DNA from: Marinobacter profundi
GTDB lineage: Bacteria > Pseudomonadota > Gammaproteobacteria > Pseudomonadales > Oleiphilaceae
DNA length: 64,000 nucleotides
Direction of reading: 5' to 3'
Assembly: GCF_002744715.1 (NCBI RefSeq)
Contig: NZ_KZ319372.1
Coordinates: 186,001-250,000 of the forward strand
Below are positions 24,376 to 61,901 of this stretch, one piece after another. A program made the position numbers and the translations under genes. The notes beneath the pieces are model-generated. The model saw nothing but the letters and a program-made list of their open reading frames with translations, searched no databases and was not told the DNA's origin. Position 1 is the first letter of the stretch. Each line of letters starts with the position of its first letter.

Positions 24376-25182
24376 ATGCGGGTAGTATCAATCAGCGTCA
24401 ATGGCCTGGCTCAGGCCGTTGAAAAGGGCTTTTTTGACTGGCTGGCCGCGCAGGATGCCGACGTGGTCTGTGTCCAGGATCACCGCATGCGCGCCTATGA
24501 GATCGAAGATTACAATCTCATCCCCAAAGGCTACGAAGCCTATTTTATTGACGGCGAAAAGAACGAGGACGGCGGTGTCGGTATCTACACCCGTCATTTC
24601 CCGAAAGCCATCATGTACGGATTTGCCAATGAGCAGGCGGATCGTGAAGGTCGATTCATCCAGGCCGATTTCGACAAGGTCAGTGTTGCGTGTGTCCTTG
24701 CGCCCTGTGCCCTGGGCAAGGAAGACGATCCCATCGGTGATAATGACCTGACCGCGCTGGACCATAAAGATGACTTTATGGAGGCGTTTGGCCTGCACAT
24801 GCAGAAAACCCTGCGCAAGCGCCGCCAGTTCATCTTCTGCGCCAACCTGCAAACCGCACACCACGTTACTGACGCCAGTTCCCGCTACCACAAGCTGGAC
24901 GTATCCGGTTTTCTGCCCCACGAGCGTGCGTGGCTCGACCGGCTGTTCGACGAGATGGGTTGCATCGACGCCTTCCGCGAGATCAACAAGCAAAGCAATC
25001 AGTTCACCTGGTGGCCGGAGTGGGCCGAAGGCTGGCGCAAGAATGCGGGTATTCGCGTTGATTACCAGTTGCTGACGCCTGGCATCCGCAAGACCATTCT
25101 TGATGGCTGGATCGACGATGGCACCCGGTTTTCCGATCATGCGCCGGTAGTGATGGATTACGACATCGAAATCGGCTTCTGA
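24376..25182 (+). CDS. crc: Catabolite repression control protein Crc (degenerate ExoIII fold)
   Basis: A 268-residue member of the exonuclease III/AP endonuclease fold. It sits between pyrE and rph exactly where Pseudomonas has crc and begins [23 protein letters not shown], close to Pseudomonas Crc. Of the ExoIII catalytic set, N9, D229 and H255 (SDHAPV) remain, but the metal-binding Glu is replaced (VCVQD, D35) and the Asp of GDxN is Ala (FCANL, A156). Pseudomonas Crc is likewise catalytically dead and works by stabilising Hfq on A-rich mRNA leaders. I infer the same here, supported by the CrcZ-like RNA at 56941-57321. A weakly active nuclease cannot be excluded from sequence. Confidence 0.82.
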
Positions 25183-54943: not shown

Positions 54944-55459
54944 TTATACGGGAGCTTGCGTTCCCCGGGGTAGCGGATTCAGTTTTCGCAGTGCGTTATC
55001 CGGGCACTGCGCCCTGGCGCTGGTCAGCGATGTGCCATCAGGCAGCGTGAGTTCCGGCTTGAGGTCCAGCAGGGGTTGCAGCGCGAAATCGCGGTTAACC
55101 AGTTCCGGGTGGGGAACCGTCAGTCGCTCATCGTTAATGACGTTGTCGCCGTAGATCAGCAAATCCAGGTCCAGCGTGCGTGGCCCCCAGTGCTGGATGC
55201 GCTCGCGGCCGTGGGCCAGTTCGATGGCCTGGAGATGGTCGAGCAGTGCCAGCGGTGGCAATTCGGTACGCAGCCAGACGGCGCCATTGATAAAGTCTGG
55301 CTGGTCCTGGGGGCCAACTGGCCTGCTGGCGTAAAACGGCGACTGGGCAACCAGGGTGGTCATGGGCAGGCTGGCGAGCTCGGTAACGGCCGCCGCCAAC
55401 TGGCGCTCCGGGTCGGCCAGGTTACTGCCCAGGCCGATAAAGGCGTCAACCGGGGTCAT
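54944..55459 (-). CDS. folK: HPPK, canonical folK
   Basis: A 171-residue 2-amino-4-hydroxy-6-hydroxymethyldihydropteridine pyrophosphokinase. It has AFIGLGSNLADPERQL, SRPVGPQDQPDFINGAV, WGPRTLDLDLLIYGD and LTVPHPELVNRDFALQPL, all matching E. coli FolK closely. Its start overlaps the pcnB stop (ATGA). Confidence 0.96.
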   Translation of the reverse strand: MTPVDAFIGLGSNLADPERQLAAAVTELASLPMTTLVAQSPFYASRPVGPQDQPDFINGAVWLRTELPPLALLDHLQAIELAHGRERIQHWGPRTLDLDLLIYGDNVINDERLTVPHPELVNRDFALQPLLDLKPELTLPDGTSLTSARAQCPDNALRKLNPLPRGTQAPV

Positions 55460-56808
55460 GACGGTTTCCTGGTTACAGGTTTGCGGCGCCGCCGGCGTTT
55501 GGCGGGCGCGGCGCTGCCGAGCTGGGTGAGCATACGTTCACGACCGCGGTCATCGGTGTTCTGGAAGTCGGTCCACCACTGGCCGAGCCCGGGTTCGATT
55601 TCCCCCGCGGCTTCCCGGACCAGCAGGAAATCATACGCGGCGCGGAAGCGGGGGTGCTCCATGGTAACCAGTGCCCGTTTGCCCTGACGGCGCGGCAGTC
55701 GCATCTGCAGTTCCCAGATTTCTTTCATCGGGCCAGAGAACCGCTTGGGAATGGCCGTAGCCTGGACCTGACGCCCGATCACTTTGCCTATTGCCTGGTG
55801 CAGAGCAAGCTGGACCGGCTCGCCGTTGTCCTGGCGCCGAAGCCATTCTGCCTGCAGCGCCGGCCACAGCATGGCGGCAAACAGGAAGTAGGGCGTTACG
55901 GATTTGCCCTGGGCGATCCGGGCGTCGGTATTCTGTAATGCCCGGCGGATCAGCTCGTCCGGTTCGCCGGCATCAATGGCCCGAACGGTTTCCGGGAACA
56001 GCGACTCCAGCAGACGGTAGGATTTGAGCAGGTCGTAGGTAGCTTCACCGTAACCTGCCGAAAACAGCTTCAGAACCTCGTCGAACAGCCGGGCAGAGGG
56101 AATATGGGTCAGCAGCGGGGCCAGGTCCCGAATCGGCGCCGCGGTTTCCGGTTCGATCTCGAAATCCAGCTTTGCCGCAAAGCGAATGGCCCGCAGCATT
56201 CTTACCGGGTCTTCGCGATAGCGGGTTTCCGGATCACCAATCAGCCTCAACTGGCGGTTGCGCAGGTCCTCGATACCGTTGGCAAAATCAATGACAGTAA
56301 AGTTGCGGATGCAGTAATAAAGGGCGTTGACCGTGAAGTCGCGCCGCAGGGCGTCTTCCTCAAGGTTGCCGTAGACGTTGTCCCGCAGCAGCAGGCCATG
56401 TTCACTGGTTTTGCGATCATCGTCGGCGCTGTCGACCTCGGTATCGCCGGCATTGCCGCGGAACGTGGTGACCTCGATTACTTCGCGGCCGAACAACACG
56501 TGGACAATACGGAAGCGCCGGCCAATCAGCCGGGAATTGCGGAACAGTTCATGCACCTCTTCCGGCGTGGCATCGGTGGCAATGTCGAAATCCTTGGGCT
56601 GGCCATCCAGCAGGATGTCACGGACGCCGCCGCCTACAAGGTAGGCCTCGTAGCCGGCCTTGTTGAGGCGGTTCAGCACTTTCTTGGCCGGCTCGCTGAT
56701 CATTGAGCGGGACACGGTGTGTTCTTCCCGGGGAATGTCCCGGCGCTTGTAAGTGCGGGGTTTGGGTTTCCCGGTACCGGGAATCAGGGACAGCAGTCGT
56801 TTTAGCAT
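55456..56808 (-). CDS. pcnB: Poly(A) polymerase I
   Basis: A 450-residue class II nucleotidyltransferase that adds poly(A) tails to RNA 3' ends for decay. GGGVRDILLDGQPKDFDIATDATPEEV carries the catalytic DxD, RRFRIVHVLFGREVIEVTTFRG and EEDALRRDFTVNAL follow, and the basic tail (AKRRRRRKPVTRK) is typical. It lies downstream of crcZ and cbrB in the same direction, as in Pseudomonas. Confidence 0.96.
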   Translation of the reverse strand: MLKRLLSLIPGTGKPKPRTYKRRDIPREEHTVSRSMISEPAKKVLNRLNKAGYEAYLVGGGVRDILLDGQPKDFDIATDATPEEVHELFRNSRLIGRRFRIVHVLFGREVIEVTTFRGNAGDTEVDSADDDRKTSEHGLLLRDNVYGNLEEDALRRDFTVNALYYCIRNFTVIDFANGIEDLRNRQLRLIGDPETRYREDPVRMLRAIRFAAKLDFEIEPETAAPIRDLAPLLTHIPSARLFDEVLKLFSAGYGEATYDLLKSYRLLESLFPETVRAIDAGEPDELIRRALQNTDARIAQGKSVTPYFLFAAMLWPALQAEWLRRQDNGEPVQLALHQAIGKVIGRQVQATAIPKRFSGPMKEIWELQMRLPRRQGKRALVTMEHPRFRAAYDFLLVREAAGEIEPGLGQWWTDFQNTDDRGRERMLTQLGSAAPAKRRRRRKPVTRKPS

Positions 56809-56869: not shown

Positions 56870-56940
56870 CGTTAGACCGTGATTCCGTGCTGATGAGGGG
56901 CGCGGGGAGGTGTTCGGCAAGTTGCAGGGGCCAGATAATC

Positions 56941-56970
56941 AAAAGGCGGATCCGTTTTCACGAATCCGCC
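56941..56970 (-). terminator. Terminator of crcZ
   Basis: On the - strand GGCGGATTCG, a 6-base loop, CGGATCCGCC (one mismatch) and TTTTGATT end the RNA. Confidence 0.82.
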
Positions 56971-57321
56971 CTGAAAGCGTTGACGATCTGCATTATTTTT
57001 GTTGTTGCAGGGATTTTTTTGGTTTTTTTGCCCCTTGTGCTCCCCAAGACGGGGGCGTCCAGGAATGCAAACGGAAAGCTTTGAACACATTGAGCGGTCA
57101 GCGACATCGGGCGGATTCTTGAGCAAATGTAGTGGCGCCTGGAGGACGATTCTTCTCTACATCTACAACCCGCACGAGCCAAGGGACCACTAAAAAGCAT
57201 AGTACCCAAAACACTCAGTTCGCTTACGTTCTGTTCTTGTTTTTGTTGCCGAACGTTCTCTGCAGCTTTTTGTTTTTGTTGTTGCCGCTGCGTTGTCACT
57301 GTTGTTTTTGTTGTTGTGCGC
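56941..57321 (-). ncRNA. crcZ: CrcZ-like small RNA sequestering Hfq/Crc
   Basis: A predicted RNA of about 380 nt between cbrB and pcnB, the position of crcZ (407 nt) in P. aeruginosa. Its bounds are a sigma-54 promoter (57331-57346, start near 57321) and a terminator (56941-56970). It carries five A-rich CA motifs fitting AAnAAnAA on the - strand: 57299-57317 (ACAACAACAAAAACAACAG), 57266-57284, 57231-57249, 57011-57030 and 56990-57008. Three cluster at the 5' end and two near the 3' end. In Pseudomonas, such repeats titrate Hfq-Crc and relieve catabolite repression. No reading frame here looks like a real protein. The call is by synteny, promoter and motif content; it has not been folded or compared to a database. 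Confidence 0.83.
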
Positions 57322-57330
57322 TATATAGAG

Positions 57331-57346
57331 TGCACTGCCCGTGCCA
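57331..57346 (-). promoter_or_regulatory. Sigma-54 promoter of crcZ
   Basis: TGGCACGGGCAGTGCA on the - strand: perfect TGGCACG, GG-N10-GC spacing and TGCA at -12. The predicted RNA start, near 57321, gives GCACAACAACAA as the 5' end, which closely resembles the start of Pseudomonas CrcZ as I recall it. Confidence 0.85.
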
Positions 57347-57420: not shown

Positions 57421-57504
57421 TGTTACCCAGATCACAGTTTTCATTTTGATGGTGTTACCTGGGGGAACACCGGGTAACACGTATTGCGGGGAGGGGCGGT
57501 AACA
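57421..57504. promoter_or_regulatory. CbrB-type upstream activating sequences
   Basis: TGTTAC at 57421-57426 and 57453-57458 and GTAACA at 57474-57479 and 57499-57504. The inner pair forms TGTTAC-N15-GTAACA; the outer pair encloses it. The cluster begins 75 bases upstream of the sigma-54 promoter and ends 22 bases from the cbrB stop. TGTTAC/GTAACA subsites are reported for CbrB in Pseudomonas. Confidence 0.7.
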
Positions 57505-57526: not shown

Positions 57527-58933
57527 TCAGCTGCCGGTGGTTTTCTTGCGGGGAATACCCAGGCGCTGACGACGCTCCCAGAGGGACTTGCGGCTAATGC
57601 CCAGCTTCTGCGCCAACTCGGTTTCGCTCATGCGGTCCTGGTTCTCGAGCACGAAGTGCTGGAAGTAATCCTCCAGTGAGAGATCGCTGGTGGCATCGTT
57701 ATCCCGCGGGCGCATTTGTTCGTTATTGCCCTCCACCAGGGTTTCGGGAATGTTGACGTCGCCGCCTTCGCTTTCCAGATCCAGCAGGCCGGGGGTAATG
57801 ACGTCAGTATCACAGAGAATGGTGGCACGTTCGATCGCATTCTCCAGTTCCCGGACGTTGCCGGGCCAGCGGTGTCGTTCCAGGGCACGCATTGCTTCCG
57901 GACTCAGGTTCAGCCCCGGCTTGCCCATCCGTTCTCCCTGCCGTTTAAGGAACCGGCTGGCCAGGCCCAGGATGTCGCCCTGGCGCTCACGCAATGGCGG
58001 AATCCGGATCTGCATGACGTTCAGGCGGTAATAAAGATCTTCCCGGAACTCTCCGGTACGGGTCATGGCCTTGAGGTTGCGGTGGGTAGCGGCAATCATC
58101 CGCACATCCACCTGGCGGCTCTGGGTGGAGCCGACCTTGCGGATTTCGCCTTCCTGCAGGACCCGTAGCAAGCGTGCCTGCGCTTCCGGAGGCAGTTCGC
58201 CGATTTCGTCGAGAAACAGGCTGCCACCGTCAGCGGCTTCGATCAGGCCGGTACGGGCAGAAACGGCACCGGTAAAGGCGCCTTTCTCGTGGCCAAACAG
58301 CTCCGATTCGATCAGGCTTTCCGGAATCGCAGCGCAGTTGACCGAAATCAGTGGTCGTGCCGCCCGTGGGCTGAGCAGGTGCAGGGCGCGGGCTGCCAGT
58401 TCCTTGCCAGTGCCGGATTCACCCTGGATCAGCACGGTGGTTTCGGTAGGTGCTACCTTGCGAATCAGGGTGAAGACCTTCTGCATGGCGTCGCACTTGC
58501 CATACATGATGGTCGACGGATCGATGGTGCCATCATTGCCGGCGGGCTCCTCAGGGGCATCCGCCGCGTGCTGGTCGGGGGCCTGGCGGCGTTGCAGAAT
58601 CGCCGCCACAGCAGCCAGCATTTCATCATGGTCGAACGGTTTGGCAATGTACTCAACGGCCCCCATTTTCATGGAGTCCACCGCAGAACGCAGGCTGGCA
58701 TAGCTGGTCATGATCAGTACCGGGGTGGCAGCTGCCCGGGTGATCAGTTCGGTACCGGGGGCGCCGGGCAGCCTCAGGTCGGAAATGATCAGATCAAAGT
58801 CGTTCAGTTCGTAGCCGCTGTCGGCCTCGTCGACCGAGCCGGCGACGGCCACCTCGTAGCCGGCGTGTTGCAGCAGTTTCCGCAAGGCGGAACGAATAAT
58901 CTCTTCGTCTTCTACGATCAGTATGCGGGGCAT
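57527..58933 (-). CDS. cbrB: NtrC-family response regulator CbrB
   Basis: A 468-residue sigma-54 activator. The receiver domain has D52 in [10 protein letters not shown] and K98 in IAKPF. The AAA+ domain has Walker A GESGTGKE (171-178), the sigma-54 contact loop GAFTGA (218-223) and Walker [17 protein letters not shown]. The Fis-type HTH ([20 protein letters not shown]) ends the chain. It lies 7 bases after cbrA. With CbrA it responds to carbon/nitrogen balance and switches on crcZ, whose predicted sites lie immediately downstream. Confidence 0.93.
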
Positions 58934-58940
58934 AGCTGTT

Positions 58941-61901
58941 TCATGACCTTTCGTTCTGGCTGAGGGCGGACTCGGTGTCGGCTTCGTAGGCTGGCAGAGT
59001 CAGTCGTACGCAGGTGCCGTGGTCAGTCGTGGGACTGGCCGGGCTGATGACCTGGATGTTGCCGTAATGTTCTTCGATGATGCTGTAGACCAGGGACAGG
59101 CCGAGTCCGGTGCCCTGGTTGGGTCCTTTGGTGGTATAGAAGGGCTCGAAAATATGATCGAGCTGGTCTTCGGGAATCCCGGAACCCTCGTCGGTGACCT
59201 CGATGATAGCGGAGTATCCCTCGCGGTTTCCACTGATGCGGATCAGCCCGCCCTCGGGGGAGGCGTCCCGGGCATTGGCCAGCAGGTTGACGAATACCTG
59301 TACCAGGCGTTGTTCGTCCCCCAGCACCATGAGATTGACCGGACAGTCGTTCTGGTAGTGGATGCCGGCGCCTTTGTCGCTCAGCGACAGCAGGTTGATG
59401 GACTCCTCCACGCAGCGCCGGATGGTCACCGGTTCGTAACGGTTGGCGGGGGCGTGGTTGCCGGAGCGGGCGAAATTCATCAGCGATTGCAGGATTGCGG
59501 AGATGCGGCGGGTCTGCTGCTGGATCTGCTCCGCGGTGGCAAGAATGTCCGGGTTGTCGGTTTCCAGCTTCAGGTTCTGTGCCAGCGACGAAATGCCGGT
59601 CACCGGGTTGCCGATTTCGTGGGCGACGCCGGCCGCCAGCCGGCCCACCGAGGCCAGTCGTTCGCTGTGCATCAGCTCGTCCTCGAGCAACCGGGTTTCG
59701 GTCTGGTCTTCTACCAGGATGATGCTGCCTCCTTCGGGATGGTCGGGGCCGCTGAGCGCCGCCTTGTGCAGGTTGAGCCAGTGGGGGCGGCCCTTTAGGT
59801 CGAGCCGGTGCTTGTAACGGTGCAGATCCGGACCATTAACGAAATCCTCGAACAGGGCGGCCCAGTGTTCGGGCAGGGCCATCAGCCGGGCCCCGACAAC
59901 GTCGTCCGCAGCAATCCCGGTCAGCTGCTCCATGGTGTGGTTCCACATCAGGATTTCGTCGTCATCCCCGACCGAAGCTGCCGGTATCGGCAGGTTCTGC
60001 AGGGTCTGGCGGTAGTGGCGGCGGAGGTTGTCCAGTTCGCCGGCAAGGCCGGTCAGCTGATTCTGGTATTCACCAAGAGTCCGTTCCACGTAGCGGATGT
60101 CCTGGGCGGTACCGCTGCTGGCCATGGGTTTAAAGCCCAGGTGCCGCTTGACGATATCGCTGGCCACGGAGGGGCCGAGCAGGCCTGACAGGTTGATCTC
60201 CACCTGATCGCGCAAGCGGCGTAACTGGTAGGGGCGGTACTCGACCTGAGGGAGTTTCAGCTGGCTGATGGCCCGCTCGACTTCCCGTCGGGCGACGCCA
60301 AGCCCGAGCGGGTCCGCCAGTTGCTGGACGAAATCCCGTGAGGAGGTGGCGACCAGTTCGCGGCGCTGGGGACGGGACAGGGCGCCGAGGGAGCAGGCCT
60401 GTGCCGAACTGCTTTCTTCAGCCGAACTGGCGCTCAGGACTGACGCAATGGCAAAAACGGTGACGTTGGCGGTCAGGCTGATAAAGGTGAACAGGTGCCA
60501 GTTGCCGTATTCGGGAATAATCGGGGCACCGAGCCATTCCAGCAGGTTGGCGGTGTGGGAAAACGGTAGCACCAGGGTGGCCACCCAGATCAGGGTGCCT
60601 GTTACCAGGCCGGCAATGAGACCGCGCCGGTTGCCTTCCGGCCAGTAGATGACCCCGAGCGCGCCGGGCAGCAATTGCAGGACGCCGGTGAGGGAAATGG
60701 CGCCTAGAATGGACAGGTCCAGGTTGTTGCCGACGGTGTCGTGGAACAGCAGGGCGGTCATGATGATCACGACAATCAGCAGACGCTTGGTCCAGCGCAG
60801 CCAGCGATAGATGTCGGCATGGTCTCGCGGCGTACGCAGTGGCAGAACCACGTGGTTCAGCACCATGCCCGCCAGCGCCAGGGTGCTGACGATCATCAGT
60901 CCGCTGGCGGCCGAGAGGCCTGCAATGTACATCAGCAGGGTAAGCAGGGGGCTGCCCAGCGCCTGCGCGATGCCGATGGCGAAGAAGTCGGGGCCGGTTG
61001 TCACGCCGAGTTCCTGGCCGCCCCACAGGATGACCGGCACTGGCAGTGCCAGCAGCAGCAGGTACAGTGGCAACCCCCAGCTGGCCTTTGCCAGGGCCTT
61101 AGGTGACGGGTTCTCGCTGAAAATCATGTGATACATGTGGGGCAGCACCAGTGCGCCGGCGAAAGACATCAGCATCAGCGCGCGCCAGCTGCCGTCGTCG
61201 ATGCTCATGGTCATCGCGCCGGCGGGCGAGGTGTTCAGGCTGAGCCACTGTTCCAGGCCGCCCATGCCGCCGAAAACGCTGAACAGCAGGATGCCACCGA
61301 GCAGCAGCAGGCTGGCCAGTTTGATCAGGGAGTCAAAGGCGATGGCGACAACCAGTCCCTGGTGGCTCTCCGAGCCCTGGTCACGGCGGGCGCCGAACAG
61401 CATGGTGAACAGCACGACGGTGAGGCTGAAGTAAATACTGACCACGCCGGGAGAGGCCTCCGGCGCCAGCAGGCTGGCGGATGTCGACACCGCCTGAATC
61501 TGCATGCTGAGCAGCGACAGGATGGCCGCTCCGGAGCACAGGGTAACCAGGGTGCCAGCCCACTGGCTTCGGTAACGGAACGCAAACAGGTCGGCCAGGG
61601 AGGTCAGCTGGTAGGCGCGACCGATACGCATGATCGGATTAAGCAGCACCGGTGCCAGCAAGAACGCGCCACTGATGCCCAGGTAGTAGGCGAGAAAGCC
61701 AAAGCCGGATTCTGCCGCCAGGCCAACTGCGGCGTACACTGCCCAGATGCCGGCATAGACGCCGAGGCTGAGTACATAAACCAGCGGGTGGCGGACCCAG
61801 CTGCGGGGGATCACCCCGCGTTCGGTGATGTGGGCGATGCCGAACAGCAGGATCAGGTAACAGAGGCTGCTGCCCAGCAGCGTCAGCAGGCTAAAACTCA
61901 T
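58941..61901 (-). CDS. cbrA: Sensor histidine kinase CbrA with transporter domain
   Basis: A 986-residue protein. The N-terminal half (to about 500) is an SLC5/solute:sodium symporter-like domain with about 13 helices. A short linker and a PAS domain (about 625-730: [19 protein letters not shown]) follow, then HisKA with H761 in [12 protein letters not shown] and the HATPase_c domain ([25 protein letters not shown]). This order is that of Pseudomonas CbrA, in which the symporter domain imports histidine. The start overlaps cbrX by 11 bases, implying translational coupling. Confidence 0.93.

Follow-up and report, generated by a model that had tools for sequence, protein, structure and literature searches.

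A predicted relative of the Hfq decoy RNA CrcZ between cbrB and pcnB in Marinobacter

The intergenic gap between cbrB and pcnB in Marinobacter profundi holds, as judged from its sequence, a diverged and well-conserved relative of the Pseudomonas decoy RNA CrcZ. The gap lies in a 64,000-nucleotide stretch of contig NZ_KZ319372.1, hereafter called the window, to which all coordinates refer. Seen directly in the DNA are the place of the gene, its promoter and CbrB sites, the conservation and fold of the RNA, selection on its AAn triplets, its terminator, and the presence of CbrAB, Crc, Hfq and RpoN. From these features, and by analogy with the known system, we regard it as very probable that the gene specifies the Marinobacter form of CrcZ, a CbrB-induced decoy RNA for Hfq (with Crc); transcription by CbrB, binding of Hfq/Crc and relief of repression would then proceed as they do in Pseudomonas. 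The locus is organized as follows, all features being on the minus strand.

58941–61901, minus strand: cbrA, SLC5-transporter/histidine kinase of 986 aa (PDB 10ed match, with PAS, HisKA and HATPase_c domains)
57527–58933, minus strand: cbrB, sigma-54-dependent response regulator of 468 aa (Response_reg and Sigma54_activat domains)
57499–57504, minus strand: extra copy of TGTTAC
57474–57479, minus strand: CbrB subsite F1, TGTTAC, perfect (subsite sequence from a passage of PMC6296734)
57453–57458, minus strand: CbrB subsite R1, GTAACA, perfect, 21 bp from F1
57421–57426, minus strand: CbrB subsite R2, GTAACA, perfect, 32 bp from R1
57331–57346, minus strand: sigma-54 (-24/-12) promoter, TGGCACG-N4-GTGCA
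56936–57320, minus strand: CrcZ-type RNA gene, predicted transcript of about 385 nt (RF01675 match, conservation, covariation)
55456–56808, minus strand: pcnB, poly(A) polymerase of 450 aa (TIGR01942, 527.5 bits)

With cbrB ending at 57527 and pcnB starting at 56808, the coordinates bear out the 718-base gap given in a preliminary description of this DNA, and the RNA gene sits in it on the strand of both neighbours, which is the location of CrcZ-class genes. The N-terminal part of CbrA has a sole PDB match, entry 10ed (‘histidine kinase’; 485.8 bits, E = 1.5e-144), which we infer to be the CbrA structure of a CbrA preprint, going by a passage of the latter (PMC13022988). CbrB is 62–67% identical to its relatives encoded upstream of pcnB in f20, the Pseudomonas-type family with over-threshold CrcZ matches. 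Directly 3′ of the cbrB stop lies an inverted repeat without a T run, TTCCCGG..CCGGGAA (57525–57505, minus strand), which might, or might not, restrict transcription running on from cbrB into the RNA gene.

The Rfam covariance model of CrcZ (RF01675), a check that the preliminary description had proposed, aligns with the window from end to end (model positions 1–398, at 56910–57314) at 49.9 bits and E = 6.3e-12. The match was found with the cut-off lifted; it does not reach the curated gathering score of 95 bits yet is significant, and the RNA therefore stands outside curated RF01675 but is a significant relative of it. Because 49.9 bits lie under that cut-off, default Rfam scans miss the RNA (a default scan of the window returned tRNA only), in keeping with the earlier suspicion that searches could overlook it. 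The accompanying view that the RNA body, apart from its motifs, is unrelated to anything known does not hold, given the end-to-end alignment with the CrcZ model. Genome-wide, RF01675 has one significant match, the next best scoring 12.1 bits (E about 1), and this search revealed no second CrcZ-like copy (CrcY/CrcX-like) at significance in the genome. By sequence alone, the RNA body resembles Pseudomonas CrcZ weakly. A sequence-only profile built from the core of 15 f20 gaps, excluding the A-rich end blocks, did not find the window RNA (E = 9.7), and only one of 94 genus gaps fell below 1e-3 and six below 0.05. When six core sequences from the families f2 and f34 were added to the f20 core, the window RNA reached E = 0.046 and nine of the 94 genus gaps fell below 0.01; at E ≤ 10 the enlarged profile produced right-strand matches in 90 genus gaps and wrong-strand matches in three.

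Within the genus, RF01675 matches 98 of 100 genomes at E ≤ 0.01, and none of the 100 reaches 95 bits. The two non-matching genomes also possess the promoter, the CbrB hexamers and the A-rich 5′ portion. In one of these (G027) the contig ends within the RNA gene, while in the other (G087, locus L334) the gene passes after about 200 nt into a multi-copy repeat that is found at other contig ends and is probably a mobile or insertion element; the three 5′ A-rich blocks remain before the repeat. The alignment used below comprises 94 of the 98 matching genomes, the loci of G068, G075, G077 and G098 not having been fetched. Median pairwise identity of the cbrB-pcnB gaps among these 94 genomes is 72%, and the aligned RNA stretch measures 364–395 nt, which agrees with the roughly 380 nt stated previously and with the 385 nt predicted for the window.

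Upstream of the RNA, the sigma-54 site had been described as ‘perfect’. The site itself stands and is kept across the genus in the 94-row alignment, and a script found the promoter pattern in 91 of the 94 gaps, the remaining three having CGC in place of TGC. The usual sigma-54 element is TTGC, and since the window promoter departs from it by one base, ‘perfect’ overstates the match a little. The predicted +1, 12 bases on from the -12 element, falls at about 57320; no sigma-70-type promoter was detected by a promoter scan of the gap. Ahead of the sigma-54 promoter the CbrB subsites follow one another in F-R-R order, the arrangement of the CrcZ class. Every base of R2 is at least 99% conserved in the 94-row alignment, and 89 of the 91 genus gaps with the promoter pattern carry TGTTAC upstream of the promoter, followed within 60 bp by GTAACA. 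F1, R1 and R2 were defined by mutagenesis in P. putida, for which a passage of the original paper gives a spacing of 20–25 bp (PMC6296734); in the window the centres of F1 and R1 are 21 bp apart and those of R1 and R2 32 bp.

By sequence similarity, CbrA, CbrB, Hfq, Crc and RpoN are all encoded in the genome, which completes the protein set of a CrcZ-class system. The predicted protein partner Crc is encoded within the window.

24376–25182, plus strand: crc, 268 aa, predicted protein partner (best PDB match P. aeruginosa Crc, 4jg3)

A search with residues 18–255 gave 197 bits and E = 4e-57 against 4jg3, with 99 of 229 aligned residues identical between the two Crc proteins. The open reading frames flanking crc look by eye like pyrE and rph. 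Neither crc nor the three CbrB hexamers figured in the preliminary list of features. The best PF03372 match in the genome (L001), considered as a candidate for crc, was discarded as ExoIII, a separate protein; crc is the third match, the one in the window. NCBIfam labels this Crc ‘xth’, exodeoxyribonuclease III (172.4 bits versus a cut-off of 99.05), and automatic annotation may therefore hide Crc in such genomes. Among the 18 residues named in an excerpt of the Hfq-Crc-RNA structure paper (PMC6422490), Crc keeps seven (K135, R138, K139, R140, R141, E193 and R229), has Q for E142, K for R230 and K for R196, and also differs at R137, K155, M156, W161, R162, N184, F231 and R233. In the alignment, Hfq has F where the P. 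aeruginosa protein has Y25.

The predicted RNA is composed of the following elements, listed from its 5′ end.

57302–57315, minus strand: A-rich block 1, AAn triplets at the unpaired 5′ end
57267–57283, minus strand: A-rich block 2, in the loop of hairpin 57291–57287 / 57266–57262
57234–57247, minus strand: A-rich block 3, in the loop of hairpin 57256–57251 / 57231–57226
57067–57223, minus strand: long-range core stem, 57223–57202 with 57088–57067, around a covarying branch (helices 3–11)
57192–57196, minus strand: conserved U5 element, predicted to be unpaired
57014–57029, minus strand: degenerate A-rich block 4, two A7 runs in the window genome
56993–57006, minus strand: A-rich block 5
56943–56972, minus strand: intrinsic terminator stem-loop, followed by TTTT

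Five A-rich motifs had been reported, a 5′ group of three and two close to the 3′ end. Four of them are strict AAnAAnAA blocks (with 13 overlapping matches in all; three of the blocks are 5′ and one is 3′), whereas the fifth is degenerate, consisting of two A7 runs, and turns AARAARAA-like in relatives. Both strands of the 64 kb together carry 31 strict motifs, and 13 of them fall in the RNA stretch, which occupies 0.6% of the window; none of 2000 dinucleotide shuffles of the RNA attains 13 (mean 1.7, maximum 10). Among the 91 genus gaps with the promoter pattern, five blocks are present in 70, four in 13 and six in eight. Conservation of the motifs in related cbrB-pcnB gaps, on which the preliminary description had made its proposal depend, is borne out by the 94 aligned genomes, where the blocks are kept. 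Selection falls on the triplets: 30 of the 42 in-phase triplet As of the four strict blocks are without exception in the 94 RNAs, as against none of the 17 third positions, and the exceptions lie chiefly at block edges. Because the third positions of blocks 1–3 vary little in part (majority letter in 53–93 of 94 RNAs; those of block 5 are much less conserved), selection beyond the triplet As is possible. By its sequence the RNA has several AAn/ARN repeats suited to the distal face of Hfq, as RNAs of the CrcZ class do, and the triplet-A selection matches the A-R-N distal-face pattern described for P. aeruginosa CrcZ and amiE in a passage of PMC4063720.

The fold was assessed on 40 of the 94 rows, picked by hand. 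Standard pairs account for 94.8% of the cells, compared to 36–43% with the partners slid by 1–3 columns, a percentage biased by the fact that this alignment also served to derive the structure; two-sided changes are the stronger measure. These occur in 38 of 88 pairs (134 cells), against 11–17 pairs (15–40 cells) in slid and a mean of 37 cells in shuffled alignments, and none of 500 shuffles attains any of five fold measures. The hairpins that carry blocks 2 and 3 are both short and both show compensatory changes: helix 1, around block 2, has 99.5% of its cells paired, and helix 2, around block 3, has two-sided changes in four of six pairs. The five Us of the U5 element are invariant in the 40-row alignment, and all 94 genus gaps contain five or six Us, one base and then G, in 57 of them exactly as CTTTTTAGTGG. 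After the first core-stem arm a TTTTTA(A)GTGG element is found in all seven f2/f34 gaps (L056–L062) and in Marinobacter relatives, but in none of 15 f20 gaps, setting the CrcZ of f20 apart. Predicted to be unpaired, this element might offer Hfq a second contact or be a place of cleavage.

This conserved core bears on an alternative, namely that the RNA is a CbrB/sigma-54-controlled, Hfq-binding sRNA that acts mainly by base pairing, or titrates Hfq without Crc. The outer core stem, in which 12 of 20 pairs never vary, and the U5 element show about the same degree of conservation as the A-rich blocks, although a pure decoy has no obvious need for either, and part of the Crc interface residues are changed. 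On the other hand, most of the core is engaged in pairs of the covarying fold and hence not free for pairing with targets, the AAn triplets have invariant As, and crc is present in the same window. We consider this alternative unlikely, and favour a CbrB-induced decoy for Hfq with Crc.

The terminator reported in the preliminary description corresponds to helix 15 of the covarying fold (stem 56972–56943), and its pattern recurs in 93 of the 94 genus gaps; since the terminator scan expects 1.2 such sites by chance in the gap, its weight rests on this conservation. The position of the RNA gene, immediately 5′ of pcnB and in the same orientation, might suggest a leader or read-through product regulating pcnB and not a free-standing molecule. 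Against this, the conserved stem ends 135 bp before pcnB, and we deem this reading very improbable. The window also contains a 113-aa GTG open reading frame (57299–56958), but its reading frame is not kept in relatives, meeting a stop after 1–100 codons in the other 93 of 94 genus sequences (within 40 in 85 of 94), and RNA lengths modulo 3 are spread over all classes (23, 45 and 26), so that a small protein gene is rejected as having hardly any probability at all.

Outside Marinobacter the search was extended to the order, where 85 of 390 genomes, belonging to 34 of 142 genera, have an RF01675 match at E ≤ 0.01. Twenty further matching loci from other genera and families were inspected: 13 lie between cbrB and pcnB, four (all f8) beside pcnB only, one beside cbrB only and two beside neither gene. 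Crc-like proteins (E ≤ 1e-20) were found in 313 of the 390 genomes, a count that may mix Crc with ExoIII. A CbrB relative (E ≤ 1e-120, by similarity only) is present in 106 of 125 genomes, and the region downstream of cbrB was covered in 90 of these 106, with 16 left out; the 90 represent 40 families and include five Marinobacter. A sigma-54 site followed within 420 nt by at least four A-rich motifs was seen in 70 of the 90 regions and in 32 of the 40 families, while 20 regions lack this combination. As controls, 89 regions were used because L267 (f27) has no downstream sequence: the antisense strand gave 0 of 89, and shuffled gaps gave none in 50 rounds. CbrB hexamers number 267 in the 89 gaps, versus a shuffle mean of 37, and 84 of the 89 have at least one. 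That a non-functional A-rich stretch should match the CrcZ model through composition has therefore a vanishingly small probability and is rejected, for although the model matches weakly elsewhere, control genomes included (E ≤ 10), composition explains neither conservation over 94 genomes at 72% median identity with compensatory changes, nor the conserved promoter, CbrB sites and terminator, nor the zero counts of the antisense and shuffle controls.

Some of the negative families carry parts of the arrangement. Family f5, scored negative, has 11–13 A-rich motifs and a site ending in CGC, outside the pattern, and f43 has 11 A-rich motifs and no clear sigma-54 site; f8, f9, f10, f18, f27 and f42 are negative, in part from very short gaps or contig ends. 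Other families differ in architecture. In one f38 genome (G349, locus L077) the cbrB-pcnB gap extends to 1717 bases and shows, by eye, three tandem units between a single cbrB and a single pcnB; every unit has its own CbrB hexamers, A-rich motifs and sigma-54-like site. In f40 (L080, L082, L083) and f13 (L078), two or three A-rich motifs are followed by a hairpin of the CTGGATGGGGA type or a variant, a short motif-hairpin unit that occurs twice in the f40 gaps; the repeated GGAUG of these short forms might be a site for another RNA-binding protein. No core stem was seen by eye in f44. In f8, the RF01675 match of L067–L069 lies beside pcnB with no cbrB within 3 kb (L066 is cut by a contig end), and one f8 genome (G106) has a CbrB relative without an adjoining pcnB, suggesting that in this family the RNA has been parted from its regulator genes.

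These findings speak against the limits drawn in the literature. According to passages of a 2022 review, CbrAB is unique to the Pseudomonas family, and cbrA-cbrB-crcZ is described in the genera Pseudomonas and Azotobacter only (PMC8871633); likewise, a passage of a 2018 paper calls CbrAB exclusive to Pseudomonads (PMC6296734). The one open-access paper found to join CbrA or CbrB with Marinobacter is a seawater metatranscriptome study, an excerpt of which mentions community cbrAB transcripts, not assigned to Marinobacter (PMC5073097). Within the open-access literature, the terms Crc, ‘catabolite repression’ and Marinobacter co-occur, as do crcZ and Halomonas, and crcZ was not found joined with Marinobacter, Alcanivorax or Oceanospirillales, although an earlier report is possible in subscription journals, which lay beyond this coverage. 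The sequence evidence speaks against a restriction to Pseudomonas and Azotobacter for Marinobacter and for most of the families examined. Because RNA genes of like build adjoin cbrB in most of the related families, the carbon-preference switch is probably much older and wider than these two genera. The extension to hydrocarbon-degrading Marinobacter anticipated in the preliminary description is supported, but the spread over 32 of 40 families is wider than the hydrocarbon degraders.

With somewhat less confidence than for the Marinobacter RNA itself, we think it likely that the CbrAB-CrcZ switch is ancestral to the Pseudomonadales in their entirety, as GTDB broadly defines this order, and persists at the cbrB-pcnB site in most families, with an RNA that was remodelled many times. 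The remodelling would comprise tandem copies, short forms and loss of the core stem, while promoter, CbrB sites and AAn repeats were held. The sequence evidence also explains why the RNA escapes default Rfam scans, and it provides a natural series of architectures that shows which features an Hfq decoy seems to keep, namely AAn triplets, promoter and CbrB sites, and which it can do without.

As a working mechanism, exhaustion of good carbon sources would activate CbrA/CbrB, whereupon CbrB would bind the hexamers upstream of the promoter and sigma-54 RNA polymerase would make the terminated RNA of about 385 nt. Of its AAn blocks, the first lies at the free 5′ end, the next two are set in hairpin loops, and one or two follow close to the 3′ end; they would engage the distal face of Hfq hexamers, with Crc, and Hfq/Crc would thereby be drawn away from A-rich ribosome-binding regions in catabolic and uptake mRNAs, allowing their translation. 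If the switch is indeed ancestral to the order, an Hfq decoy would underlie carbon preference in marine hydrocarbon degraders; in oil-degrading and other marine bacteria this preference becomes testable with one defined gene.

Other decoy RNAs, RsmY/RsmZ and CsrB, differ from CrcZ in binding another protein through a GGA motif and in answering to another two-component system. They act on RsmA/CsrA by titration through many motif copies, a logic that a passage of PMC4063720 likens to CrcZ; the same paper gives P. aeruginosa CrcZ as an RNA of 407 nt that titrates Hfq and has six A-rich stretches, three of them within the first 151 nt. Pseudomonas also has CrcY and CrcX, which according to a passage of PMC8871633 are likewise CbrB-driven Hfq/Crc decoys with A-rich motifs; they are extra copies in some Pseudomonas and Azotobacter, in contrast to the window genome, where none was found at significance. 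The closest counterpart is CrcZ (RF01675) of Pseudomonas and Azotobacter, with which the Marinobacter RNA shares the cbrB-pcnB location, the sigma-54 promoter with CbrB hexamers in F-R-R order, a size of about 400 nt, three 5′ A-rich stretches with more near the 3′ end, the long-range core stem and the terminator. The Marinobacter body, in contrast, is hardly alignable by sequence alone, and the window RNA stays at 49.9 bits against the cut-off of 95. Place, promoter, CbrB sites, AAn blocks, terminator, length and a significant sub-threshold Rfam match all agree with the CrcZ-like identity first proposed.

Candidate targets were sought in 827 kb of the window genome (649 genes from a crude gene finder). 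Strict A-rich motifs peak at -45 to -15 of the predicted starts, with 22 of 649 genes against four in a within-gene control interval. The same script applied to 300 kb of E. coli K-12, an organism not known to have Crc, gave eight of 221 genes against two, and the excess at mRNA starts is therefore suggestive only and partly general A-richness. A strict motif at -40 to -10 was present in 21 genes, ten of which, picked by hand, were put to Pfam and six of these also to NCBIfam. Pfam returned an acyl-CoA synthetase, a 3HB-oligomer hydrolase, a DctP-type uptake protein, a short-chain dehydrogenase (3-hydroxybutyrate dehydrogenase by NCBIfam), an enoyl-CoA hydratase, an NMT1-like protein, a FadL-type protein, an AraC-type regulator and two response regulators. 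The genes for the 3HB-oligomer hydrolase, the DctP-type uptake protein and the 3-hydroxybutyrate dehydrogenase lie within about 8 kb (contig C4, 176488–184516), and each has AAnAAnAAnAA about 20 bases before its predicted start, which makes the three, by sequence, good candidate targets. The genome also contains PF00487 matches, which are possible alkane hydroxylases.
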